A stretch of 44,052 nt of DNA from assembly GCF_001476815.1 (NCBI RefSeq), contig NZ_LDSL01000066.1:1-44052 (forward strand). The letters run 5' to 3'. Below, in pieces: positions 7,774 to 35,502 of this stretch. Numbering within the stretch: the first letter of the stretch is position 1; each line of letters starts with the position of its first letter. Position numbers and translations under genes: made by a program. The stretch is from Pseudacidovorax intermedius. GTDB taxonomy: Bacteria > Pseudomonadota > Gammaproteobacteria > Burkholderiales > Burkholderiaceae_C. Below the pieces are notes generated by a model. The model made no database searches. It had not been told where the DNA came from and saw only the letters and a program-made list of their open reading frames with translations.

Positions 7774-8861
7774 CGCAAGCCATGAACGCTTCGGCAACGA
7801 GCATTGCGCAGTTGTACAGGTCCGGCGAAGGCAAGGTCTCCGACAAGTGGGAACTCTACCTGCGCGAGTATGAGCGGCTGCTTTCGCCATACCGTCAGCA
7901 TGCCGTCTGCCTGCTCGAGGTCGGCGTCCAGAATGGCGGTTCTCTCGAGCGTTGGGGCCAATACTTTCCCAATGCAGTGAGCCTCGTCGGCTGCGACATC
8001 AACGAGGATTGCAGGAAGCTCCGCTACGACGATCCGCGCATCACGGTCGTGGTTGGCGATGCGAATGCGCCTGACGTCGCGGCCCGCATCCTCGAATGCG
8101 CGCCCGCTTTCGACATCGTCATTGACGACGGCTCCCACCGCTCGGGTGACATCGTCAAATCCTTCGCCCGGTTCTTTCCGTCGCTCAAAAGCGGTGGCGT
8201 CTTCATCGCCGAAGACCTGCATTGCAGCTATTGGAAGGGCTACGAGGGTGGCCTTTCCTATCCCCTCTCGGCGATCGCCTTCTTCAAGCGGCTGGCTGAC
8301 ATCGTGTCTCACGAACACTGGGGCGTTCCGCTCGCGAGAAAAGACGTGCTCGGCGCGTTCGTGGAGGAATACGGTTACGCGTTCGACGAAGACGACCTGG
8401 CCACCATTCACTCGGTCGAGTTCGTGAACTCCATCTGCGTCGTCACCAAGCGCCACGTTGGAGAAAACACGCTCGGAAGACGCATCGTCTCCGGTCATGA
8501 GGACCTGGTGTGGGCGGGAGCCAAAGCGCTCCGCATGCAGCCCCACGTTCCGGTGATCGAAACGGGCAATCCCTGGAATGAGATCGGCCGTCTGCCAGAG
8601 CGGGAGCGCGCGCAACTTCAAGCATCGGTTGCGGCGTTGCAGGCCGAACGGGATGGACTGGCTGCCGAATTGGCCGATGCCAGGGCAGACGCCGCCGCGG
8701 TGATGCAGCGCGAATCGGAGCTGCAAGGCTCGTTGGCGGCCGAGCGCGACGCACACAGGCGCACCGAGCAGGCGCTCACCGCCGAAGTGGCCGCGCTGCG
8801 CCAATCGACCAGTTGGCGCATCACCGCGCCGCTTAGGCGCCTGCGGTCCTTGTTCAAATAG
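7770..8861 (+). CDS. Class I SAM-dependent methyltransferase with C-terminal coiled coil
   Basis: The 363-residue protein begins with a Rossmann methyltransferase domain. CLLEVGVQNGGSLERW near residue 46 is SAM motif I, VGCDINEDC is the acidic strand-2 end, and DIVIDDGSHRSGDIVKSF near residue 114 with GGVFIAEDLHCSYW near residue 148 resemble TylF/macrocin O-methyltransferase and cephalosporin-hydroxylase-like families. Residues 277-340 are a heptad-rich Ala/Glu/Arg helix (coiled coil), and the last residues are STSWRITAPLRRL. That ending is known from many surface-glycan glycosyltransferases and methyltransferases. It overlaps the glycosyltransferase gene by four bases. It probably caps or decorates a glycan chain by O-methylation, with the coiled coil serving assembly or length control; this last point is inference. 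Confidence 0.82.
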   Translation: MTQAMNASATSIAQLYRSGEGKVSDKWELYLREYERLLSPYRQHAVCLLEVGVQNGGSLERWGQYFPNAVSLVGCDINEDCRKLRYDDPRITVVVGDANAPDVAARILECAPAFDIVIDDGSHRSGDIVKSFARFFPSLKSGGVFIAEDLHCSYWKGYEGGLSYPLSAIAFFKRLADIVSHEHWGVPLARKDVLGAFVEEYGYAFDEDDLATIHSVEFVNSICVVTKRHVGENTLGRRIVSGHEDLVWAGAKALRMQPHVPVIETGNPWNEIGRLPERERAQLQASVAALQAERDGLAAELADARADAAAVMQRESELQGSLAAERDAHRRTEQALTAEVAALRQSTSWRITAPLRRLRSLFK

Positions 8862-25950: not shown

Positions 25951-27210
25951 TCAGTCCTCCATCACGTCGCGCCAGTAGCGGTACATGCCGCGGATCAGCG
26001 TCTCGGTCACCATGTGCTCGGTGTCCTCCACGTCCTTGCCGCCAAGCTCGGCCACCGTGCGGTGGAAGGGCTTGCTCTCGAAGGCCTCCTGCGAGAACTC
26101 GATCACCTCGCCGTCGTCGGCCGACACGAAGCCGGCCGGGCCGAACAGGTTGGCCTGGCGCAGGCGGCGCTCGGTCATCTCGGGGGTGTCGTCCTCGAAG
26201 CCGAAGTGCGTCCACACGAAGTCGAAGGCGCCGTTGCCGCTGGGCTGGATGTGGCGGGTGGACACGCTGTTGACCTGCTGCTGCAGGATCACGCTCGGGA
26301 AGATGGTGGTCATCACGGCCGTGGGGCCGCCCCACCAGGGCTCGGGCACGATGTCCAGGAAGCCCGGGTCGTTCAGCTGCATGCTCTCCTTGAAGCTGGA
26401 GACCTGGGTCACCTGCTCGGCCTTGCCGGCCGTGCCGCGGGTGGAGATCATGGCCGCGTGGCGATGGCGCCCGTCCATGCGCAGCTGCGACTTGTTGTCG
26501 GCGCGCCAGAGGCCGAAGGTGACGAACCAGGTGTGCAGCAGGCCGGGGTGATAGGGGTCCTTGATGTTCTCCTGCATCAGCTTCCAGTTGCCCGGGATGC
26601 GCTGGCGGTTGTAGCCAAGGATCCTGAGCTGGCGGCCGTTGAACAGGCGGTCGAAGTACGACAGGATGGTCGGGCCCAGGTAGTCCTCCAGCGATTCGAC
26701 CTCATGGTCGAAGGACGCGAACACCACGCCCCCGCGCACCGCCACCTTGAGCTTCGTCAGGCCATGCTCGCGGGTGTCGAAGTCGGCCGGCATGCCGCCG
26801 TTGACCTTGCCGTCCTGCTTGACGCCGCGGCGGAAGGGCACGCCCTGCAGGTCGCCCTTGAGGGTGTAGCTCCACTGGTGGTAGGGGCAGACGAAGTCCT
26901 TGCGGTTGCCGTGGCGCTCGCGGCAGAAGCGCATGCCGCGGTGGGCGCAGACGTTCTCCACCACGTGGATGCTGCCGTCGGCATCGCGCACCATGATGAC
27001 CGAGCGCTCGCCGACCACCGTGCGCTTGAAGTCGCCGGGCTGGGGCACCTCGGCCTCCAGGCCGACGTAGCACCAGTGGCCCTTGTAGAAGAAGCGCTCC
27101 AGCTCGCGCTGGTAGATCTCGTCGCTGGTGTAGGCCAGGAAGGGGATGCGGTGGGTGCCGTCGCCGGGCCAGGCCGGTTCGGCGGGAAAGATGGCCGAGG
27201 GTTCGCTCAT
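25951..27210 (-). CDS. nagG: Salicylate 5-hydroxylase large (alpha) subunit, Rieske oxygenase
   Basis: This oxygenase alpha subunit has 419 residues. The Rieske ligands are Cys88/His90 (NVCAHRGMRF) and Cys108/His111 (DFVCPYHQWSY). The mononuclear iron site is His221/His226 in ENIKDPYHPGLLH, with Asp218 as bridging aspartate. The N-terminus (IPFLAYTSDEIYQRELERFF) and the catalytic domain resemble NagG, which hydroxylates salicylate at C5 to gentisate using O2 and NADH. The operon order nagAa-nagG-nagH-nagAb and the divergent NahR-type regulator support this assignment. Enzymes that cleave gentisate are not in the window. Confidence 0.87.
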   Translation of the reverse strand: MSEPSAIFPAEPAWPGDGTHRIPFLAYTSDEIYQRELERFFYKGHWCYVGLEAEVPQPGDFKRTVVGERSVIMVRDADGSIHVVENVCAHRGMRFCRERHGNRKDFVCPYHQWSYTLKGDLQGVPFRRGVKQDGKVNGGMPADFDTREHGLTKLKVAVRGGVVFASFDHEVESLEDYLGPTILSYFDRLFNGRQLRILGYNRQRIPGNWKLMQENIKDPYHPGLLHTWFVTFGLWRADNKSQLRMDGRHRHAAMISTRGTAGKAEQVTQVSSFKESMQLNDPGFLDIVPEPWWGGPTAVMTTIFPSVILQQQVNSVSTRHIQPSGNGAFDFVWTHFGFEDDTPEMTERRLRQANLFGPAGFVSADDGEVIEFSQEAFESKPFHRTVAELGGKDVEDTEHMVTETLIRGMYRYWRDVMED

Positions 27211-27252
27211 GGGGTGGCTCCTCTTTGCGGGAATGAAGACGGGGGTCGGCGC

Positions 27253-28239
27253 TCAGACGCCGGTGGGATAGAAGGCGTCGGCGTGGATGTGGTCGGTGCC
27301 GATGCCCAGCCGCCTGACCACGAAGGTCACGGCCTCGACCATCGCCGGCGCGCCGCACAGGTAGGCGCGCCAGCCGGCCAGGCCCGGCAGGTCCTCGGCA
27401 ATGGCATCGGTCACCAGGCCGGCGCGCAGCCCCGCCGGGACGGGGCCCGTGGCGACGACGATCGACAGCCTCAGTTGCGGATGGCGCTCGGCCAGCGCCT
27501 GCAGGCGCTCGCGGTCGTACAGGTCGCGCTCGCTGCGCACGCCGAAGTACAGGTGGATGGGGTTCGCCATGCCGCCTTCGAGCGCCCCGCGCACGATGGA
27601 CAGCACCGGCGCCAGCCCCGTGCCGCCGGCCACGCACAGCATCGGCCCCTCGTGCCTGCGGCGCAGGTAGGCGGTGCCCAGCGGCCCGCTCACACGCAGC
27701 GTGGCGCCGGGCTGCAGCTGCCCGAAGACGTAGTCGGTCACCCGGCCGTCGGGCACCTTGCGGATCTGGAACTCCCACACGTCCTCGCCCGGCAGCCCGG
27801 CCATCGAATAGGGACGGGCATGCTCGGGGCCGAACTGCAGCATGGCGTACTGGCCGGGGCTGAAGTCGATGGGCTTGGCCAGCTTGAGGCGCAGCCGGCG
27901 GATGTCGTGGGTCGCCGCTTCGATGTCGACCACGGTGGCCTTGACGATGCGCGCCGGATGCACCACCACCTCGTCCACCTCCGGCAGTTCGATGGTGCAG
28001 CTTTCGGCCAGCACGGTCTGGCAGGCAAGCACGTAGCCGTCGCCGGCGGTCTGCGGCCGTCCGGATTCGGGGCCGGCGTCCAGCACCCGGCCGCTCAGCA
28101 CGCGGCACCGGCAGGTGCCGCAGCGGCCGGCCATGCAGCTGTAGGAAATGGGCAGGCCGTGGGCGCGCAGCACGTCCAGCAGGTTGTTGCCGGGTTCGGC
28201 GCTCAGGCGGCGGTTCAGCGGCTCGATGGTGAGTTCCAT
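27253..28239 (-). CDS. nagAa: Ferredoxin reductase of the salicylate hydroxylase system
   Basis: The 328-residue flavo-iron-sulfur reductase has a plant-type [2Fe-2S] domain first (Cys35, Cys40, Cys43 in [12 protein letters not shown] and Cys73 in LACQT). An FAD domain with RPYSMAG near residue 142 and an NAD domain with [10 protein letters not shown] near residue 208 follow. It takes electrons from NAD(P)H to the Rieske ferredoxin. It is the promoter-proximal gene of the nag operon, with the NahR-type box about 90 bases upstream of its start. Confidence 0.87.
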
Positions 28240-28344: not shown

Positions 28345-28357
28345 AGTGGGAGACGCC

Positions 28358-29302
28358 ATGAACCTGCGCAAACTGGACCTGAACCTGCTGGTCGTCTTCA
28401 ACCAGATGCTGCTGGACCGCAGTGTTTCCATGGCCGCCGAACGGCTGGGCCTAAGCCAGCCCGCGGTCAGCAATGCGCTCAAGCGCCTGCGGATCCTGCT
28501 GCAGGACGATCTTTTCCTGCGCACCTCGCGCGGCATGGAGCCCACGCCCTATGCGCTGCACCTGGCCGAGCCGGTGGTGTATGCGCTCAATGCGTTGCAG
28601 TCGGCCTTGTCGCACCGCGACGTGTTCGACCCGGAGACCAGCCGCCGCACCTTCAACCTCGCGCTGACCGACATCGGCGAGATCTACTTCATGCCGCTGC
28701 TGATGAACGCCCTGGCCCAGCGCGCGCCGCATGTGCAGATCAGCACCGTGCGCCCGCATGCCGGCAACCTGAAGGAGGACATGGAGGCCGGCACCGTCGA
28801 CCTGGCCGCCGGCCCGCTGCCCGACCTGCAGACCGGCTTCTTCCAGACGCGGTTGCTGCGCCACCGTTACGTGTGCATGTTCCGGCGCAACCACCCGGTG
28901 GCCCGCGCGCCCATGACGCTGGCGCAGTTCAGTGCCCTCGACCATGTGGGCGTGCATTCGGCCAACACTGGCCATGCCGACATCGACGCGCTGATGGACC
29001 GGGCCGGCGTCAGGCGGCGCATGCGGCTGCGCGTGCCGCACTTCGTCGCCGTGGGGCCCATCCTGCAGAGCACCGACCTCATCGCCACCGTGCCGGAGCG
29101 CTTCTCCGAGCGCATCGCCGACGCCTTCGGGCTGGTCAGCACGCCGCATCCGGTGCGGCTGCCCGACATCGCCATCAACCTGTTCTGGCATGCCAAGTTC
29201 AACCGCGACCCGGCCAACCTGTGGCTGCGGCAGTTGATGGTGGAGCTGTTCGTCGACGCGGCACCGCGCAAACGCGCGCGTGCGGCGGTGTCCTGCGGTT
29301 GA
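28358..29302 (+). CDS. nagR: LysR-family activator NagR/NahR (salicylate-responsive)
   Basis: Over its 314 residues it has an N-terminal DNA-binding domain (MNLRKLDLNLLVVFNQMLLD, then LSQPAVSNALKRLRILLQDD) and an effector domain. The latter has the NahR-like stretches FNLALTDIGEIYFMPLLMNA, GPLPDLQTGFFQTRLLRHRY and PDIAINLFWHAKFNRDPANL. NahR-type proteins sit on DNA constitutively and activate with salicylate. The ATG at 28358 is chosen because NahR proteins begin M-x-L-R-x-LDLNLL; a GTG at 28346 would add four residues. It is divergent from nagAa across the NahR box. Confidence 0.88.
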   Translation: MNLRKLDLNLLVVFNQMLLDRSVSMAAERLGLSQPAVSNALKRLRILLQDDLFLRTSRGMEPTPYALHLAEPVVYALNALQSALSHRDVFDPETSRRTFNLALTDIGEIYFMPLLMNALAQRAPHVQISTVRPHAGNLKEDMEAGTVDLAAGPLPDLQTGFFQTRLLRHRYVCMFRRNHPVARAPMTLAQFSALDHVGVHSANTGHADIDALMDRAGVRRRMRLRVPHFVAVGPILQSTDLIATVPERFSERIADAFGLVSTPHPVRLPDIAINLFWHAKFNRDPANLWLRQLMVELFVDAAPRKRARAAVSCG

Positions 29303-29383: not shown

Positions 29384-29423
29384 ATTGGGGTAATGAAGAC
29401 TTAAAAATACCCCAATTTGGGTA
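29384..29423 (+). promoter_or_regulatory. Palindromic leader/operator region of the Fic gene
   Basis: ATTGGGGTA (29384-29392) and its perfect reverse complement TACCCCAAT (29408-29416) are 15 bases apart. The second arm also starts an overlapping near-palindrome, TACCCCAATTTGGGTA (29408-29423). The sequence is much more AT-rich than the flanks and sits 40-80 bases before the Fic start, so a repressor operator overlapping the promoter is likely. The Fic C-terminal winged helix is a candidate binder (inference). The rest of 29303-29461 shows no gene. Confidence 0.5.
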
Positions 29424-29461
29424 GCATTGCCCCATTTGTTCGCCAAACTGAATGCCGTCGC

Positions 29462-30538
29462 ATGCACTCCCTCTCGCCTGATTACCTGACCAAGCTCCGC
29501 TTCGACACGCGGCAACTTGCGTCGATGCGCGCCTTGGGGGAGTACCGCGGCAAGCAGCAGCTCTTCGTCGCGCAATCACCCGAGGTGCTGAGCGACCTGC
29601 GGCAGATTGCGGTCGTCGAGTCCACCGAGTCGTCGAACCGCCTGGAGGGCGTTGTCGTGCCGACCCACCGGCTCAAGTCGCTGGTGCTCAAAAACGCGAC
29701 GCCGCAAAGCCGGTCCGAGCAAGAGGTCGCGGGCTACCGCGATGCGTTGGGCTTGATCCACGAAAGCGGCGAGCAGATGCCGTTCTCGGAGGGCACGGTG
29801 CTTCAACTCCACGGCATGCTGTACCGCTACATGCCGCAGCCGGGCGGTCGATGGAAGGCAACGAACAACGACATCGTCGAGCGCTACCCGGATGGGAGAT
29901 CGCGCATTCGTTTTCGTCCTGTCGCCGCGCATCTCACCCCCATGGCGGTGACGGACCTGATGGCGCGCTATCGCTCGGCGCTGGATCAGCATCTGGCGGA
30001 CCCCCTGGTGCTGGTGCCGCTGGTCATCCTCGACTTCCTGTGCATTCACCCCTTCCCGGACGGCAACGGACGCATGGCACGCCTGCTCACCCTGCAGCTG
30101 CTCTATCACTTCGACTATGTGGTGGGGCGCTTCATCAGTCTGGAGCGCATCTTCGAGGAGTCGAAGGAAAGCTACTACGACACCTTGAAAGCCAGTTCCC
30201 AGGACTGGCACGAGGCGGCCCACACCACTGCGCCGTGGCTCGACTACTTCTGGGGTGCGGTGCTGCGCGCCTACAAGGAGTTCGAGGAGCGCGTCGGCAC
30301 CATCGAACGAGGTCGCGGTGCCAAGGGCGACCGGGTGCGCTCGGAGGTTCTCAAGCGGCAACGTCCCTTTTCCATCTCGGAGATCGAGGAATCCTGCCCC
30401 GGCGTCAGTCGCGACATGGTTCGGGTGATCTTGCGCGCCATGAAGGCCGAAGGCTCGATCGCGCCGACAGGCAAAGGCCGCGCTGCCAAATGGCAGCGCA
30501 CACAAGAAAGCGAGGCCGACCTCAAACCCGGCCGCTGA
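29462..30538 (+). CDS. Fic family protein with inhibitory helix and C-terminal winged helix (probable AMP-transferase)
   Basis: The protein is 358 residues long. The Fic active loop IHPFPDGNGRMAR near residue 193 keeps every catalytic residue (His, Asp, Gly, Asn, Gly, Arg, Arg). Near residue 56 is SSNRLEG, the S/TxxxE(G/N) inhibitory motif, placed before the Fic core as in class II Fic proteins; its Glu blocks ATP binding in the resting state. The C-terminal 70 residues (VRSEVLKRQRPFSISEIEES then VSRDMVRVILRAMKAEG) form a winged helix, so it may autoregulate. The target is unknown. It ends 17 bases inside the convergent SDR gene. The AT-rich leader differs from its surroundings and hints at horizontal gain. 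Confidence 0.87.
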   Translation: MHSLSPDYLTKLRFDTRQLASMRALGEYRGKQQLFVAQSPEVLSDLRQIAVVESTESSNRLEGVVVPTHRLKSLVLKNATPQSRSEQEVAGYRDALGLIHESGEQMPFSEGTVLQLHGMLYRYMPQPGGRWKATNNDIVERYPDGRSRIRFRPVAAHLTPMAVTDLMARYRSALDQHLADPLVLVPLVILDFLCIHPFPDGNGRMARLLTLQLLYHFDYVVGRFISLERIFEESKESYYDTLKASSQDWHEAAHTTAPWLDYFWGAVLRAYKEFEERVGTIERGRGAKGDRVRSEVLKRQRPFSISEIEESCPGVSRDMVRVILRAMKAEGSIAPTGKGRAAKWQRTQESEADLKPGR

Positions 30539-31223
30539 CCGGAATCGCCGCGCCGTGGATGGCGCGCGCGGCATCGGACGCCAGAAAGGCGATCACGTCC
30601 GCCAGCGCCTGCGGCGCCACCCAGCGGCCGAAGTCGGCGTCGGGCATGGACTGGCGGTTGTCCGGCGTGTCGATGATGGAAGGGAGCACGCAGTTGACGC
30701 GGATGCCCTGGTCTTTCAGTTCCGCCGACATCGACTCGGTCAGGCGGATCAACGCGCTCTTGGCCGCGCTGTAGGCGCCCATCTGCGCACCGCCGCGCGC
30801 GGCAGCGCCCGCGCCCACGGTCACGATCTGGCCACCGCCCTGCTTCAGCAGCAGCGGCACCGTGGCCGCGGCCACATGCAGCAGTGAGCGGGCGTTCAGG
30901 TCCATCAGGAAGTCCCACGTCGCCGCACTGGTCTCGTGCACCGCCTCGCCCATGCGGAAGCCGCCGGCGATGTGGCAGACGGTGTGCAGGCCGCCCATGC
31001 GCGCCACGGCTTCGCCGATGCGTTGCACGACCTGTTCCCGGTCGGCCAGGTCGACCATCACGTTGAGCACCCGCTCGCCGTCGGCCAGGGCGCCGGCCTG
31101 ACGGTCGAGCAGGATGAGCCGGGCACCCTGGTCCTGGAAGGTGTGGGCCACGGCGCGGCCCAGCTGGCCGGAGGCGCCGGTGATCAGCATCACCTTCTGC
31201 TTCGCTTGCGGTTGCGCGTTCAT
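30522..31223 (-). CDS. SDR resembling quinonoid dihydropteridine reductase, in the phenylalanine hydroxylase operon
   Basis: The SDR has 233 residues: TGASGQLGRAV (residues 15-25) is the nucleotide loop and Tyr151/Lys155 (AYSAAK) the catalytic pair. The usual catalytic serine is missing (IVTVGAGAAARGG). Animal dihydropteridine reductase (QDPR) also lacks it. Residues 84-90 (HIAGGFR) parallel its VAGGW. Residues 185-201 (DTPDNRQSMPDADFGRW) are nearly the same as the DTPMNRKSMPEADFSSW I recall from human QDPR. The gene is 10 bases after phhA. Together these suggest it regenerates tetrahydropterin from the quinonoid dihydro form after PhhB dehydration. Related SDRs occur without phhA, so function is inferred. 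Confidence 0.8.
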   Translation of the reverse strand: MNAQPQAKQKVMLITGASGQLGRAVAHTFQDQGARLILLDRQAGALADGERVLNVMVDLADREQVVQRIGEAVARMGGLHTVCHIAGGFRMGEAVHETSAATWDFLMDLNARSLLHVAAATVPLLLKQGGGQIVTVGAGAAARGGAQMGAYSAAKSALIRLTESMSAELKDQGIRVNCVLPSIIDTPDNRQSMPDADFGRWVAPQALADVIAFLASDAARAIHGAAIPVSGRV

Positions 31224-31233
31224 GTCCGCTCCT

Positions 31234-32136
31234 TCACGCCTTGGCGGCCGCACGCCGCGCCGTGTGGTAACGGCCCGTGCCGCGGGTGAGCACCGTGTCG
31301 GTGGCCAACAGGTCGCCGGGCTCGTGCTCGGGCGCACCCGCCAGGCGCTGGTAGAGCGGCGCGAAGTCGATGCGCGCCAGTTCCAGCAGTTCGTCGAGGT
31401 GGCCCAGCACGAAATACGTTTCCTGGAAATCGTCGATGCGGTAGTGCGTCTGCGTCACGCGCGCCAGCTCGAAGCGCACGCGGTTGGGCGAGTCGTCCTC
31501 GACGGCGAAGCGCGTTTCGCTGAAGGATGAGGCGATGCCCGCGCCATAGATGCGCAGGCCGTCGCGCTGCTGGACCAGGCCGAACTCCACCGTGTACCAG
31601 TACACCCGCGCCAGCTTCTCCAGCATGCCCAGGCGGTTGGCCTTGAGGCCGCCTTCGCCATAGGCCTGGATGTAGTCGGCGATGACGGGGTTCATCAGCA
31701 TGGGCACGTGGCCGAACACGTCGTGGAAGACGTCGGGCTCTTCCAGGTAGTCCAGCTCGTGCGGCTTGCGGATGAACTGGCCGGCCGGAAAGCGGCGGTT
31801 GGCCAGGTGCTCGAAGAACACGTCGTCGGGCACCAGGCCGGGCACGGCCACCACCTCCCAACCCGTGCGTGCGCGCAGCACCTTGGACATCTGCTCGAAG
31901 TCGGGGATCTGCTCCGGGCCGATGGGCAGGTCCTGCATGCCGCGGATGAATTCGTCGCATGCGCGGCCGGGCAAGAGGCGGCTCTGGCGCTCGAAGAGCG
32001 TGCGCCACACGCCATGTTCCTCGGCGCTGTAGCGGCCCCAGTCCTGGTCGATGGTCCAGTCGGGGCGGGCCGGGGCGTGGTCCGTCCCCGCCGCCAGGCC
32101 ATGCTTGGCCGGCGCGGTGTCGGTGGTCTGCAGCAT
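31234..32136 (-). CDS. phhA: Phenylalanine 4-monooxygenase
   Basis: The 300-residue pterin-dependent aromatic amino acid hydroxylase matches the short bacterial form without a regulatory ACT domain. Iron ligands by count are His138 and His143 (PDVFHDVFGHVP) and Glu184 (YWYTVEFGL), the same numbering as I recall for the Chromobacterium enzyme. It converts L-phenylalanine to tyrosine with O2 and tetrahydropterin. It lies between phhB (9 bases upstream) and the QDPR-like SDR, and after hppD, which degrades tyrosine-derived 4-hydroxyphenylpyruvate. A tyrosine aminotransferase is not in the window. Confidence 0.93.
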   Translation of the reverse strand: MLQTTDTAPAKHGLAAGTDHAPARPDWTIDQDWGRYSAEEHGVWRTLFERQSRLLPGRACDEFIRGMQDLPIGPEQIPDFEQMSKVLRARTGWEVVAVPGLVPDDVFFEHLANRRFPAGQFIRKPHELDYLEEPDVFHDVFGHVPMLMNPVIADYIQAYGEGGLKANRLGMLEKLARVYWYTVEFGLVQQRDGLRIYGAGIASSFSETRFAVEDDSPNRVRFELARVTQTHYRIDDFQETYFVLGHLDELLELARIDFAPLYQRLAGAPEHEPGDLLATDTVLTRGTGRYHTARRAAAKA

Positions 32137-32145
32137 GGGGGGCTC

Positions 32146-32481
32146 CTAGGTGGAGGAGGCGGCGGCGCGGGCGCCCAGGGCGGTGGCCAGCCGGTCCATC
32201 AGGCCGGCCATCTCGATGTCCTTGGCCGACAGGCCGTGGGCATCGTGCGTGGTCAGGGTGACCTGCACGCGGTTGTAGACGTTGAACCACTCGGGATGGT
32301 GGTTCATGCGCTCCGCATGCAGGGCCACCTGGGCCATGAAGCCGAAGGCGGCCACGAAGTCGGCGAAGACGAATTCGCGCACGATCAGGCCACCGCGCTC
32401 CGGCGCATGGCGCCACTGCGGCAGCGCGGCGAGGTGCGCCGCGAGCGCGTCGCCGTCGAGGCGGACGGGCGCTGCGCTCAC
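32146..32481 (-). CDS. phhB: Pterin-4a-carbinolamine dehydratase (GTG start)
   Basis: The 111-residue protein contains [20 protein letters not shown] and [18 protein letters not shown], the PCD motif with two catalytic histidines. It dehydrates 4a-hydroxy-tetrahydropterin released by PhhA to the quinonoid dihydropterin. The start is the GTG at 32481, which overlaps the hppD stop (GTGA), giving coupling; there is no upstream ATG in a sensible place. The longer frame upstream is a shadow of hppD. Confidence 0.9.
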
Positions 32482-33587
32482 GCGGCTTCCTTCTCGGTGG
32501 TCTTGTCGTCCACCTTCAGCACGCCGCGGTTGATCTGGTCGCGCTCCAGCGATTCGAACAGGGCCTTGAAGTTGCCCTCGCCGAAGCCTTCGCGGTAGTC
32601 GCCCTTGCGCTCGATGAATTCGAAGAACACCGGGCCCAGCGTGGGCTCCGAGAAGATCTGCAGCAGCAGGCGCGGCTGGCCGTTTTCGGTCGTGCCGTCC
32701 AGCAGGATGCCGCGGGCCTGCAGCTCGCCCACCGGCTGGCCGTGGCCGGGCAGGCGCTTGTCCAGGTTCTGGTAGTAGATGTCGTTGGGCGCCGTGAGCA
32801 GCGGCACGCCAGCCATCTGCAGCCGGTCGATGGATTCGAGCAGGTTGTCCGTCAGCAGGGCGATGTGCTGGATGCCCTCGCCGTTGAACTGCATCAGGAA
32901 TTCCTCGATCTGGCCGCCGCCCTGGCGAGACTCTTCGTTCAGCGGAATGCGCACCAGGCCGTCCGGTGCGGTCATGGCCTTGGAGGTCAGGCCGGTGTAC
33001 TCGCCGCTGATGTCGAAGTAGCGGATCTCGCGGAAGTTGAAGAGCTTGCTGTAGAAGTCGGCCCAGTAGCTCATGCGGCCGCGGTAGACGTTGTGCGTCA
33101 GGTGGTCCACCACCTGGAAGCCATGGCCCTTGGGATGGCGCTCGACGCCGGGCAGGAATTCGAAGTCGATGTCGTAGATGGACTTGCCGTCCTCGAAGCG
33201 GTCGATCAGGTACAGCGGCGCGCCGCCGATGCCCTTGATGGCCGGCAGGCGCAGTTCCATCGGGCCGGTGGCGATCTCGATGGGCTGGGCGCCCAGCTCC
33301 AGGGCGCGCTTGTAGGCCTGGTGCGAGTCCTTCACGCGGAAGGCGAGGCCGCAGGCCGAGGGGCCGTGCTCGGCAGCGAAGTACCCGGCCTCGCTGCGCG
33401 GCTCGCGGTTGACGATGAAGTTGATGCCGCCCTGGCGATACAGCAGCACGTCCTTGGAGCGGTGCTTCGCCACCAGCGTGAAGCCCATCTTCTCGAACAG
33501 CGGCTCCAGCACGTTGGCCGTCGGCGAGGCGAATTCGACGAATTCGAAGCCGCACAGGCCCATGGGGTTGTCGAAGAGGTCGGACAT
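32478..33587 (-). CDS. hppD: 4-hydroxyphenylpyruvate dioxygenase
   Basis: The 369-residue vicinal-oxygen-chelate protein has iron ligands His162 (VDHLTHNV), His240 (IQHIALLT) and Glu322 ([10 protein letters not shown]), essentially the positions of the Pseudomonas enzyme. It turns 4-hydroxyphenylpyruvate into homogentisate. The start MSDLFDNP at 33587 has GGAG about 8 bases upstream; an ATG 20 codons earlier lacks family similarity. It is the first gene of the hppD-phhB-phhA-SDR operon. Homogentisate dioxygenase and later enzymes are absent from the window. In 33588-33781 I see only the upstream region, with no gene. Confidence 0.93.
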
Positions 33588-33781
33588 CGTTGGCTCCAGA
33601 TTCGTGGGTGGACGGAAAGGCTCTACTGTAGGCAGAGCGTCGCGCACTTATCCTGCAATTTCCGGATCGATTCCGACTGGGATCAATGATTTTCTGCGAG
33701 TTTTGAGGCGGGAGAGCTTCTCTGGAGCGTGATCGGCCGATGATGTGCAGGGAAAGCGCTCAGCCGGGTCGGCACTCGCGC

Positions 33782-34513
33782 TCAGCCCGGGCCCGGCGTG
33801 CCATCGTCTGAACGGCGCGAGGGACGCAGGCCGGGCGCGTCCTGGCCGGCATCCAGCAGCGCCTCGTAGTTGCGACGGAGGATGAGGCCAGCGTAGTAGA
33901 CATGCTCGCGCATCAGCTGCTCGGCGCGGGCAGCATCGCCGCTCACCACCGCTTCCACGATGCGGTGATGGTCGCCATGCGAGCGCAGGATGATCGGATG
34001 GTCGTCCCACAGGATGATCCGGTCCGACGCAAACGGGATGTTCTGCGCCTGCTCCGCGAAGCGGCAGACCCAGTCGTTGCCCGAGGCCTCCAGCAGCGTG
34101 TCGTGGATCTCGACATTCATCCGCTGGTACGGCTCGTGGTCCGACGGCTCCAGCCTGCCCTTGGCCAGGATGGCGTCGCCGATGGCGAGGTTCTCGCGCA
34201 GGCGCTGGACCTGCGCCTTGTCCAGTCCGCGCTGGGCGGCATTGCGGCAGGCCAGGCCTTCCAGCACCGAGCGCACCTCGTACGCCGCGGCGATCGCATT
34301 CAGGTCGAAGCCGCGCACCACATAGCCGCGCTTGGGCTGGTGGTCGATCAGGCCTTCGCTGGCGAGCGTGGCCAGCGCCGCGCGCACGGGCGTGCGCGAG
34401 ACCTGCAGCTGCTGCGCGAGGGGCAACTCCTCCAGCCGCGTCAGGGGCTTGAACTGGCCATGGAGGATCCAGTCGCGGAGCGTGTCCGTGACGTTCTGCG
34501 CCAGCGTCTTCAT
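33782..34513 (-). CDS. GntR family regulator, FCD (FadR-type) subfamily
   Basis: Its 243 residues begin with a winged helix (LRDWILHGQFKPLTRLEELP, then VSRTPVRAALATLASEGLID near residue 40). An all-helical FCD effector domain follows; metal-binding residues are plausible in EIHDTLLEASGN (Asp, His region) and HGDHHRIVEAV, and REHVYYAGLILRR is the last helix. The start at 34513 (MKTLAQN) has AGAGGG 7-8 bases upstream; an ATG at 34552 lies inside the putative operator. It is divergent from the SDR-liv-SDR-FAD-GST operon, so likely its repressor, induced by an organic acid-like ligand. Confidence 0.87.
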   Translation of the reverse strand: MKTLAQNVTDTLRDWILHGQFKPLTRLEELPLAQQLQVSRTPVRAALATLASEGLIDHQPKRGYVVRGFDLNAIAAAYEVRSVLEGLACRNAAQRGLDKAQVQRLRENLAIGDAILAKGRLEPSDHEPYQRMNVEIHDTLLEASGNDWVCRFAEQAQNIPFASDRIILWDDHPIILRSHGDHHRIVEAVVSGDAARAEQLMREHVYYAGLILRRNYEALLDAGQDAPGLRPSRRSDDGTPGPG

Positions 34514-34544
34514 CGGAATACCCTCTGTTTCTAGTCGGCATTGA

Positions 34545-34615
34545 GTATACATGTGAGCCCTAAAACGTCGATTTAACGGGTTAACCCGGGCGTTATATTC
34601 GTGTCAGGTATACAT
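34545..34615. promoter_or_regulatory. Operator region: two GTATACAT sites 63 bases apart flanking a 12-base palindrome
   Basis: GTATACAT occurs at 34545-34552 and again at 34608-34615, exactly 63 bases apart (six helical turns). Between them CGGGTTAACCCG (34577-34588) is a perfect palindrome. The region is AT-rich and lies between the divergent gntR and SDR starts. FCD-type GntR proteins bind TNGTNNNACNA-like sites, and GTATAC fits the core. Confidence 0.6.
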
Positions 34616-34650
34616 AATCCGCCGCCTGTGATGATCCGACGGAGACAACG

Positions 34651-35502
34651 TTGAACGATTTCCCGGCCACTGCGCCGCATTGGCTCGGCCTGAACGACCG
34701 CGTCTGCGTGGTCACCGGCGCCGCGGGTGGCATCGGCACCGAGGTGGCGCGACAGCTGCTGGGCGCCGGCGCGCGCGTGGCATTGCTCGACCTCGACGGT
34801 GCCCAGGCGGCGCGCGCGCTGGACACGCTGGGTGCCCCGCCCGAGCGCGCCATCGCGCTGGGCTGCGACGTGAGCAGCGAAGCCAGCGTGCAGGCAGCCG
34901 CCGAGGCTGTGCGCCGCCAGCTGGGCCCGGCCCAGGTGCTGGTCAACAACGCCGGTGCGCTGTACGCGGGCGCGTTGCTCGAACTGCCCATCGAACGGTG
35001 GAACCAGCTGCTGGCGGTCAACCTGGGCGGCTATCTGCTGTGCGCCCAGCAGTTCGGCCGCCAGATGCGCGAGCAGGGTGGCGGGTCGATGGTGCATGTG
35101 GGCTCCGTCTCCGGCAGCGTGCCGCAACCCTTCAGCGGCGCCTACAGCGTCAGCAAGGCTGGCGTGGCCATGCTGTCGCGGCTGTTGGCGGTGGAGCTGG
35201 CGGAAAGCCGCATCCGCAGCAACCTCGTCAGCCCCGCCATGATCCGTACCCCCATGAGCGAGGGCATCTATGCCCAGGACGCCGTGCGCACGCTGCGCGA
35301 GCGCATCGTGCCGGCCGGTCGCATCGGCACGCCGGCCGACATCGCGCAGGCGGTGCTGTTCCTGGCGAGCGACCAGGCCGCCTATGTCAATGGCCAGGAG
35401 ATCCTGGTCGACGGCGGCCTCACCCAGACCTGGCTGGGGCTGATCCCCCGGCCCGGTTTCCAGAAAGAGGACGCCGCAGCCCCCGCCGCCGTGCAGGCCT
35501 GA
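34651..35502 (+). CDS. SDR family oxidoreductase (first gene of the liv-type catabolic operon)
   Basis: The protein of 283 residues is a classical SDR: VVTGAAGGIGTEVAR near residue 22, VLVNNAGALYAG near residue 97, HVGSVSGS with the catalytic Ser, and YSVSK near residue 166. The C-terminus is extended by about 25 residues (GLIPRPGFQKEDAAAPAAVQ) beyond the usual VDGG end. The start is a TTG at 34651 with GGAG six bases before it; the nearest ATG (34631) is out of frame. It is divergent from gntR and 40 bases upstream of the binding-protein gene. It probably oxidises a hydroxyl of the imported compound; the substrate is unknown. Confidence 0.82.
   Translation: MNDFPATAPHWLGLNDRVCVVTGAAGGIGTEVARQLLGAGARVALLDLDGAQAARALDTLGAPPERAIALGCDVSSEASVQAAAEAVRRQLGPAQVLVNNAGALYAGALLELPIERWNQLLAVNLGGYLLCAQQFGRQMREQGGGSMVHVGSVSGSVPQPFSGAYSVSKAGVAMLSRLLAVELAESRIRSNLVSPAMIRTPMSEGIYAQDAVRTLRERIVPAGRIGTPADIAQAVLFLASDQAAYVNGQEILVDGGLTQTWLGLIPRPGFQKEDAAAPAAVQA

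Follow-up and report, generated by a model that had tools for sequence, protein, structure and literature searches.

A candidate quinonoid-dihydropterin reductase of the SDR family encoded behind phhB and phhA in Pseudacidovorax intermedius

To our knowledge, it is not settled how the pterin cofactor of phenylalanine hydroxylase (PAH) is regenerated in most bacteria. One form of hyperphenylalaninaemia involves the loss of animal quinonoid dihydropteridine reductase (QDPR, or DHPR), and the quinonoid pteridine reductases of E. coli are flavoproteins from families other than the short-chain dehydrogenases (SDRs). According to the available text of PMC1971073, which cites Vasudevan 1988, these E. 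coli enzymes are a DHPR and Hmp; together with the accessible part of PMC4029321, this is consistent, for E. coli, with the statement in a preliminary description of the present locus that bacteria generally recycle quinonoid dihydropterin by unrelated flavoprotein reductases or side activities. In E. coli, recycling of quinonoid dihydromonapterin for a bacterial PAH has reportedly been achieved with human pterin-4a-carbinolamine dehydratase (PCD) and DHPR (PMC10354952, available text). The literature covered, mainly open-access and partly in excerpt, yielded no report of a bacterial phh operon with an SDR-type pterin reductase, a scope that does not establish absence from print.

Here we analysed a window of 44,052 nucleotides from Pseudacidovorax intermedius (contig NZ_LDSL01000066.1), in which hppD, phhB and phhA are followed by a gene encoding an SDR (Table 1). 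This SDR is probably an NADH-dependent quinonoid-dihydropterin reductase, which would be the third enzyme closing a bacterial PAH cycle. Given its QDPR signature and its tight spacing to phhA, it is a concrete and easily assayed candidate.

Operon layout and residues of the SDR

The order hppD-phhB-phhA-SDR was found with intergenic distances of -4, 9 and 10 bases (hppD/phhB, phhB/phhA and phhA/SDR, respectively), the GTG start of phhB sitting within the stop of hppD (GTGA, a 4-base overlap); the preliminary description had given gaps of about 10 bases or overlaps. From this tight spacing we infer that the four genes constitute one transcriptional unit. phhB matches what we take to be the PCD active-site pattern, and phhA keeps the HxxxxH motif and the Glu region that presumably mark the hydroxylase. 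A consensus scan for sigma-70-like sites gave a single one in 30300-34700 (position 34571; 0.3 expected) and none immediately upstream of hppD. A weak terminator-like site is present on the minus strand at the end of the SDR gene, the region having 5 such sites against 2.0 expected.

Table 1. Features of the hppD-phhB-phhA-SDR locus
Feature	Coordinates	Strand	Remarks
hppD, 4-hydroxyphenylpyruvate dioxygenase	33587..32478	-	ATG..TGA; TIGR01263 374.8 bits, cut-off 277
phhB, pterin-4a-carbinolamine dehydratase, 111 aa	32481..32146	-	Pfam Pterin_4a PF01329 108.6 bits, cut-off 26
phhA, phenylalanine 4-monooxygenase, 300 aa	32136..31234	-	TIGR01267 350 bits, cut-off 264.75; PF00351
Ser-less SDR (P0001), candidate NADH-dependent quinonoid dihydropterin reductase, 233 aa	31223..30522	-	ATG..TGA
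Codons of signature DTPDNRQSMPDADFGRW (SDR residues 185-201), common to eukaryotic QDPR	30621..30671	-	
Codons of YSAAK, catalytic Tyr151 and Lys155 of SDR	30759..30773	-	
GntR/FCD-type regulator, possible regulator, upstream of operon	33782..34552	-	PF00392 and PF07729

The claim that the SDR lacks the catalytic Ser and keeps Tyr151 and Lys155 was borne out, since the Ser position is occupied by Ala138. In column 138, Ala was found in all 84 close rows (window SDR included) and in 3/3 QDPR, whereas 29 of 30 ordinary SDRs have Ser there, and the Y-x3-K pair is present in 84/84 close rows and 3/3 QDPR. Gly88, Asn189, Arg190, Met193 and Trp201 also separate the close rows and QDPR from ordinary SDRs, and column 40 has Asp, which we take to be the usual NAD(H) mark, in 74/84 close rows and 3/3 QDPR. 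The residue table dropped three QDPR-like rows, namely a duplicate of the window SDR and two signature-less rows on long branches, so its QDPR-like column is flattered.

The block DTPDNRQSMPDADFGRW of the SDR is indeed a near-repeat of DTPMNRKSMPEADFSSW in human QDPR, a comparison verified against the solved chains 1hdr and 9dtw, and fits the pattern DTPxNRxxMPxADxxxW; the DTPxNRxxMP block was found in 0/30 ordinary SDRs of the source genome. The shared AGG turn likewise holds, as AGGF at residues 86-89 and AGGW in QDPR, the residue after AGG being Phe in every aligned bacterial row of the group and Trp in 3/3 QDPR. In the motif survey, from which rows shorter than 180 residues were omitted and in which the window SDR itself and two proteins that also appear in other sets are among the 26 QDPR-like rows, Ser loss, AGG and the signature block mark a wide bacterial SDR group that extends beyond the phh operon. 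The signature alone was therefore rejected as proof of a link to phh operons, being present in non-adjacent and distant relatives.

These residues also bear on whether the SDR is instead a FolM/PTR1-like reductase, whose substrate on the way to tetrahydropterin would be 7,8-dihydropterin and not the quinonoid form. The operon logic would be the same, and FolM is described in the available text of PMC13259868 as producing tetrahydromonapterin, which serves PAH and similar hydroxylases as cofactor; however, the FolM/PTR1 mark TGX3RXG (PMC1971073 and PMC13259868, accessible portions) is absent from the SDR, which has TGASGQLG and bears the QDPR signature instead, and we regard this assignment as quite improbable.

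Relationship to eukaryotic QDPR and to ordinary SDRs

The source genome gave 68 matches to the SDR family model, including two pieces of one gene and one match below the cut-off, and 30 of them served as ordinary SDR rows (22 in the quick tree and, with two long-branch rows excluded, 20 in the main trees). A profile of three QDPRs scored the window SDR at 77.4 bits and these 30 ordinary SDRs at no more than 25.9. When human QDPR was compared with the source genome, the window SDR, with an E-value of 2e-13 and 24-26% identity, was the sole match at E<=1e-6 once 9 of the 25 first-look candidates had been scored. The tree separates 34 bacterial group rows and 3 QDPR from the 20 ordinary SDRs with 100/100 support, a split that persists without the signature, AGG and Ser columns. 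A phylogeny placing the SDR far from QDPR had been named beforehand as evidence against the proposal; the SDR groups with QDPR against the 20 ordinary SDRs, and an arrangement with QDPR as sister to the bacterial group is compatible with the data alongside one with QDPR nested in it (AU p 0.40, from an unrooted tree with an ordinary set from one genome and a long QDPR branch).

Whole-length comparisons point elsewhere. QDPR was absent both among the 60 best solved sequences matched by the window SDR, the nearest being FabG-like and other classical SDRs, and among the 50 best folds of a Foldseek comparison (pdb, viral), in which classical SDRs were again nearest, whereas the reverse search starting from QDPR favours the window SDR. 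The whole-length sequence and fold of the SDR are thus closer to classical SDRs than to QDPR. Of the complete, animal-like PAH cycle claimed at first, the kinship to QDPR as against ordinary SDRs and the recurrent tight place behind phhA or phhB stood, while the whole-length resemblance to classical SDRs speaks against it. The SDR may represent a bacterial sister lineage of QDPR and is a candidate rather than an established member.

Gene neighbourhood and co-occurrence with phhA

From 523 SDR relatives the best 80 loci were kept, and in 37 of these phhA is directly upstream on the same strand; 29 of these 37 clusters also contain phhB. A start codon was assignable in 34 of the 37, and the phhA-SDR gap is 15 bases or less in 33 of the 34, with 17 overlaps of 4 bases, although small gaps are favoured since the script, where several starts were possible, took whichever came closest to a gap of 5. 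In three more loci (L077, L097 and L123) phhB is directly upstream of the SDR and phhA is elsewhere in the genome, and in four the SDR is directly upstream of hppD. An apparent phhA-SDR fusion in L054, L064 and L071 was discarded, given that the BLAST ends overlapped and the SDR frame is a separate gene. The phhA adjacency and the QDPR-likeness of the SDR exceed chance.

The survey of phhA/SDR adjacency proposed earlier was positive only in part. Adjacent phhA is missing from 43 of the best 80 loci, or 36 once phhB and hppD neighbours are also removed, and a PF00351 match is missing from 12 of 77 SDR-bearing genomes (a check that covered the 43 non-adjacent loci and 7 of the adjacent ones, 50 of 80 altogether), so that the outcome named at the start as adverse, close homologues mostly outside phh operons, is nearly reached. 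A PCD gene is present in 11 of the 12 phhA-less genomes, and also in 7 of 14 control genomes. QDPR-profile scores of phhA-adjacent and other close copies have medians of 60.5 and 60.8 bits, respectively, so that adjacency to phhA brings no greater likeness to QDPR.

Across the phylum sample, 34 genomes have a QDPR-like match (some weak or signature-less), and phhA was found in 25 of them versus 57 of the 265 others, counts that ignore phylogeny and genome size. At E<=1e-30, 30 of 299 genomes match the window SDR; only in 2 of them (G000 and G088) does it adjoin phhA, and 8 are without phhA. The looser E<=1e-25 gives 41 genomes, 24 with phhA.

A catabolic dehydrogenase acting on an aromatic or CoA-linked metabolite, with an ancestral QDPR signature and no pterin activity, was also considered. 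QDPR-like or close SDRs do occur in phhA-less genomes (9/33 and 8/30), some relatives adjoin fatty-acid, transport and repair genes, and the overall sequence is classical. The Ser of carbonyl chemistry is, however, lost in 84/84 close rows, and the SDR pairs with phhB even where the locus is without phhA, which makes a catabolic role unlikely in our judgement. Scans of 30 neighbour proteins of the relatives, in three sets of 10, detected no pterin family; these proteins came from a rough ORF caller and may include spurious genes.

On a Halioglobus plasmid, an SDR of the group type lies next to an aromatic amino acid hydroxylase of the long form. Among 369 genomes searched, three have this hydroxylase, and its 1.5-kb flanks there did not show the pairing. 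In plasmid records (30 of 56 matches listed), group proteins, where named, are called only 'SDR family' oxidoreductase or 'fabG'.

The family sample contains the SDR in 20 of 120 genomes and phhA in 68 of 120; no SDR match was found near eight phhA loci (L018-L020 and L024-L028), and in G104 the SDR is at the contig end, so that its neighbour cannot be judged. That many phhA genomes are without the SDR would suit a general quinone or electrophile reductase encoded near aromatic pathways, with pterin recycled by other reductases, as in E. coli, to which two quinonoid pteridine reductases of different types are attributed (PMC1971073 and PMC4029321, available text). This explanation is very improbable, because it leaves both the tight phhA spacing and the specific QDPR signature unexplained.

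Proposed role and comparison with known systems

In the favoured reading, a quinonoid-dihydropterin reductase, PhhA would hydroxylate phenylalanine and release 4a-hydroxy-tetrahydropterin, the bacterial pterin being probably tetrahydromonapterin; PhhB would dehydrate this to quinonoid dihydropterin, and the SDR would convert it to tetrahydropterin with NADH, using Tyr151/Lys155 in the manner of QDPR. The tyrosine product, after transamination, would be handled onward by HppD. In ordinary SDRs the Ser orients the carbonyl; because the proposed substrate is a quinonoid ring and not a ketone, the SDR would not need this residue. The locus suggests that some bacteria may run the whole pterin cofactor cycle from one operon. 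Much more tentatively, all Ser-less bacterial SDRs with AGGF and DTxxNRxxMPxAxxxxW could form a quinonoid-dihydropterin reductase family, filed at present as FabG/SDR oxidoreductases, with eukaryotic QDPR as a fast-evolving offshoot and the hydroxylase-PCD-reductase animal PAH cycle already assembled in one bacterial operon; we consider this broader view rather doubtful. The SDR suggests a possible origin for animal QDPR, and it may offer a bacterial part for strains that produce tyrosine and DOPA; one such strain relies on the human enzyme (PMC10354952, available text).

Among described proteins, eukaryotic QDPR/DHPR (1hdr, 1dhr, 1ooe, 3orf and 8b5t) shares with the SDR the Y-x3-K pair, the replacement of Ser by Ala, the AGG turn, GxxGxLG, Asp at the NAD(H) position and DTPxNRxxMPxADxxxW, and groups with it against ordinary SDRs; it differs by the Trp after AGG, where the bacterial SDR has Phe, and by the more classical overall sequence of the latter. 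FabG-like classical SDRs (4fn4, 3uxy and 7djs) are alike in fold and overall sequence, with at most 33% identity among the 50 best folds, and the FabG model NF004204 of NCBIfam (PRK05653.2-5) is the best for the SDR, yet it gives 203.9 bits against a cut-off of 352; unlike FabG, the window SDR has Ala138 in place of the catalytic Ser and a signature missing in 30 ordinary SDRs. FolM, PruA and PTR1 are likewise SDRs acting on pterins, FolM for the hydroxylase cofactor as far as the available sources describe it, but the substrate form is different and TGX3RXG is missing in the window SDR. The E. coli quinonoid pteridine reductases would share the proposed reaction, in unrelated protein families. 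Finally, the phhAB(C) operons of Pseudomonas and Aeromonas also combine phhA with phhB (PMC3458870 and PMC4368426, accessible text); there phhC is an aminotransferase gene, whereas the extra gene in the P. intermedius operon encodes a QDPR-like SDR.

Organization of the hppD-phhB-phhA-SDR unit

As the preliminary description had proposed, hppD, phhB, phhA and the gene for the Ser-less short-chain dehydrogenase (SDR) form a tight unit, all on the minus strand: hppD and phhB overlap, the phhB GTG start lying within the hppD stop codon (GTGA, 32481-32478); phhB is 9 bases from phhA, and phhA 10 bases from the SDR gene. The case for co-transcription comes from spacing, since a consensus scan detected no sigma-70-like site directly before hppD and, at the end of the SDR gene, a weak site resembling a terminator. 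The 3' end of the SDR gene is overlapped over 17 bases by a convergent Fic/DOC-family gene.

Coordinates of the operon and flanking genes in the window
Feature	Coordinates	Strand	Remarks
hppD	33587..32478	minus	confirmed by NCBIfam/Pfam
phhB	32481..32146	minus	GTG start; confirmed by NCBIfam/Pfam
phhA	32136..31234	minus	confirmed by NCBIfam/Pfam
SDR gene	31223..30522	minus	behind phhA
GntR/FCD regulator gene	33782..34552		upstream of hppD-phhB-phhA-SDR
Fic/DOC-family gene	29417-30538	plus	PF02661, 50.9 bits
Rieske-type oxygenase, its ferredoxin reductase, divergent LysR-type regulator	25951-28239 (minus) and 28346-29302 (plus)		judged by eye from translations

The nearest named relatives of the SDR are Pseudacidovorax loci (88-93% identity, identical gene order), which makes this genus the probable source of the window. 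No NCBIfam model among the best 25 of 224 reached the cut-off for a curated name, the top one being a FabG subfamily (203.9 bits vs a cut-off of 352), and in the 30 plasmid records listed, those relatives that bear a name go under 'fabG' or 'SDR family' oxidoreductase. In the portion of the open-access literature covered, no description of an SDR-type gene of this kind in a phh operon was found.

Kinship with quinonoid dihydropteridine reductase

The signature of the eukaryotic quinonoid dihydropteridine reductase (QDPR) in this SDR is real. In its C-terminal part, quinonoid dihydropteridine reductases were among the best solved chains, aligned via the block DTPxNRxxMPxADxxxW, which confirms the match to human QDPR (the sequence used is identical to chain 1hdr) pointed out in the preliminary description. 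Columns invariant among the SDR, ten relatives and human QDPR are G16, G19, L21, G22, A86, G87, G88, A141, M148, Y151, K155, P181, D185, T186, N189, R190, M193, A196, W201 and G224. By strict pattern the block is present in the window protein, in 37 of 40 phhA-adjacent and 39 of 43 non-adjacent rows, in 23 of 26 QDPR-like rows (a set that contains the window protein itself and shares two members with other sets), in 10/10 farther rows and 3/3 QDPRs, and in none of the 30 aligned SDRs from elsewhere in the same genome (ordinary SDRs). The absence of the catalytic Ser, with Tyr151 and Lys155 kept, also holds: column 138 is Ser in 29 of the 30 ordinary SDRs, and Ala in all 84 close rows (window included), all three QDPRs, 22 of 23 QDPR-like phylum proteins and 8 of 10 farther family members.

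Whereas the SDR family model has 68 matches in the genome, human QDPR retrieved this SDR as the only match at E<=1e-6 (2e-13; nine of 25 first-look candidates scored). Against a profile of three eukaryotic QDPRs the window protein reached 77.4 bits, vs a maximum of 25.9 and a median of 8.1 for the ordinary SDRs. A 57-protein tree split 34 bacterial group rows plus the three QDPRs from 20 ordinary SDRs, all of one genome, with support of 100/100, which was retained without the signature, AGG and Ser columns. QDPR as sister to vs nested within the bacterial group gave an AU p of 0.40, in an unrooted tree with a long QDPR branch. The tree and profile support kinship with QDPR as against ordinary SDRs. 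In the reverse direction the SDR resembles classical SDRs: its best sequence and fold matches were FabG-like and other SDRs, QDPR being absent from the best 60 sequence and best 50 fold matches listed. The AlphaFold2 model, although confident (pLDDT 92.9), is not discriminating.

Genomic context of the SDR relatives

A genome_contigs scan (84,980 species) with nine close SDRs as queries identified 523 relatives, the best 80 loci of which were kept (77 genomes, three with two loci each, judging by record names). In 37 of these 80 the SDR follows phhA immediately and on the same strand; 29 of the 37 also have phhB in the cluster, and 15 have hppD no more than 2.6 kb away. The phhA-SDR gap is at most 15 bases in 33 of the 34 loci where a start could be placed, 17 having a 4-base overlap, although choosing the start nearest a gap of 5 favours small gaps. 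In three loci (L077, L097, L123) the SDR comes immediately after phhB and phhA is at another place in the genome, so that both recycling enzymes are paired and the hydroxylase is apart. In four others (L083, L088, L090, L092; around 8001-8680), from Pseudorhodoferax and Variovorax, the SDR is directly upstream of hppD, and the gene divergent from it was identified as class II DAHP synthase in L029, apparently the same locus as L092; by record name, three of these genomes have a second SDR copy behind phhBA (L068, L074, L076).

Therefore, 44 of the 80 loci adjoin phhA, phhB or hppD. In 43 loci phhA is not adjacent, being elsewhere in the genome for 31 and absent for 12. The dehydratase (PCD) gene is kept in 11 of these 12 genomes, and in 7 of 14 control genomes. 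Adjacency to phhA is scattered across the close SDR tree (16 changes). Close copies are equally QDPR-like whether they adjoin phhA (60.5 bits) or not (60.8 bits), which counts against a special refinement of the SDR in the operon.

In the family sample of 120 genomes, the SDR (E<=1e-30) was found in 20 and phhA (E<=1e-20) in 68, the two being adjacent in four (G000, G052, G086, G088); G071, of the same genus as the window, has phhA, but its SDR is just 47% identical and lies on a different contig. Among 299 phylum genomes, 82 had phhA, 34 a QDPR-like match (E<=1e-6; a few weak or without the signature) and 25 both, a co-occurrence (Fisher odds ratio 10.1, p 2.9e-9) that ignores phylogeny and genome size. 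The window SDR, used as query, matched 41 phylum genomes at E<=1e-25, of which 24 have phhA; at E<=1e-30 the matching genomes were 30, of which 22 have it. Only two of these 30 (G000, G088) have the SDR beside phhA. The coupling was thus observed chiefly at Burkholderiales loci and at a few from elsewhere (Skermanella L105, Crenobacter L087), whereas the SDR group itself is broader. In part, the group must have another role or serve a different pterin enzyme. A QDPR-like SDR clade whose members come from a single family of the phylum with large genomes (L161-L167; G327, G203, G279, G453, G451, G384, G368) had no phhA match in six of seven genomes.

On an 11.4-kb Halioglobus japonicus plasmid (L191, NZ_CP019453.1), a long-form aromatic amino acid hydroxylase (NF010657, 659 bits) is immediately followed by an SDR of the window type. 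The pair is in an inverted duplication with the SDR frame broken in both copies, reflecting either true decay or a fault in assembly or sequencing, and did not recur in the three further genomes carrying this hydroxylase.

A candidate reductase for the phenylalanine hydroxylase cycle

Phenylalanine hydroxylase (PAH) releases a 4a-hydroxy-tetrahydropterin, which PCD dehydrates to quinonoid dihydropterin; the cycle is completed by a reductase. The SDR would be the missing reductase of the operon, with the kept residues of QDPR and without the Ser, absent from QDPR too. An Asp at position 40 points to NADH as the cofactor, and the FolM/PTR1 motif TGX3RXG is absent from the sequence. The SDR is probably an NADH-dependent quinonoid-dihydropterin reductase closing a bacterial PAH cycle.

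Tetrahydromonapterin is reported as the cofactor of some bacterial PAHs, and human PCD and QDPR (DHPR) as recycling it for a bacterial PAH in E. coli (PMC10354952); two quinonoid pteridine reductases are credited to E. coli itself (PMC1971073). The AGG turn said to be common to the SDR and QDPR is shared in its three residues, but is followed by Trp in QDPR and by Phe in the bacterial rows of the group. Because AGGW and whole-length closeness to QDPR are lacking, the SDR is not assigned to QDPR proper; it would rather work like QDPR and, on present evidence, is best named a bacterial sister lineage or variant of it.
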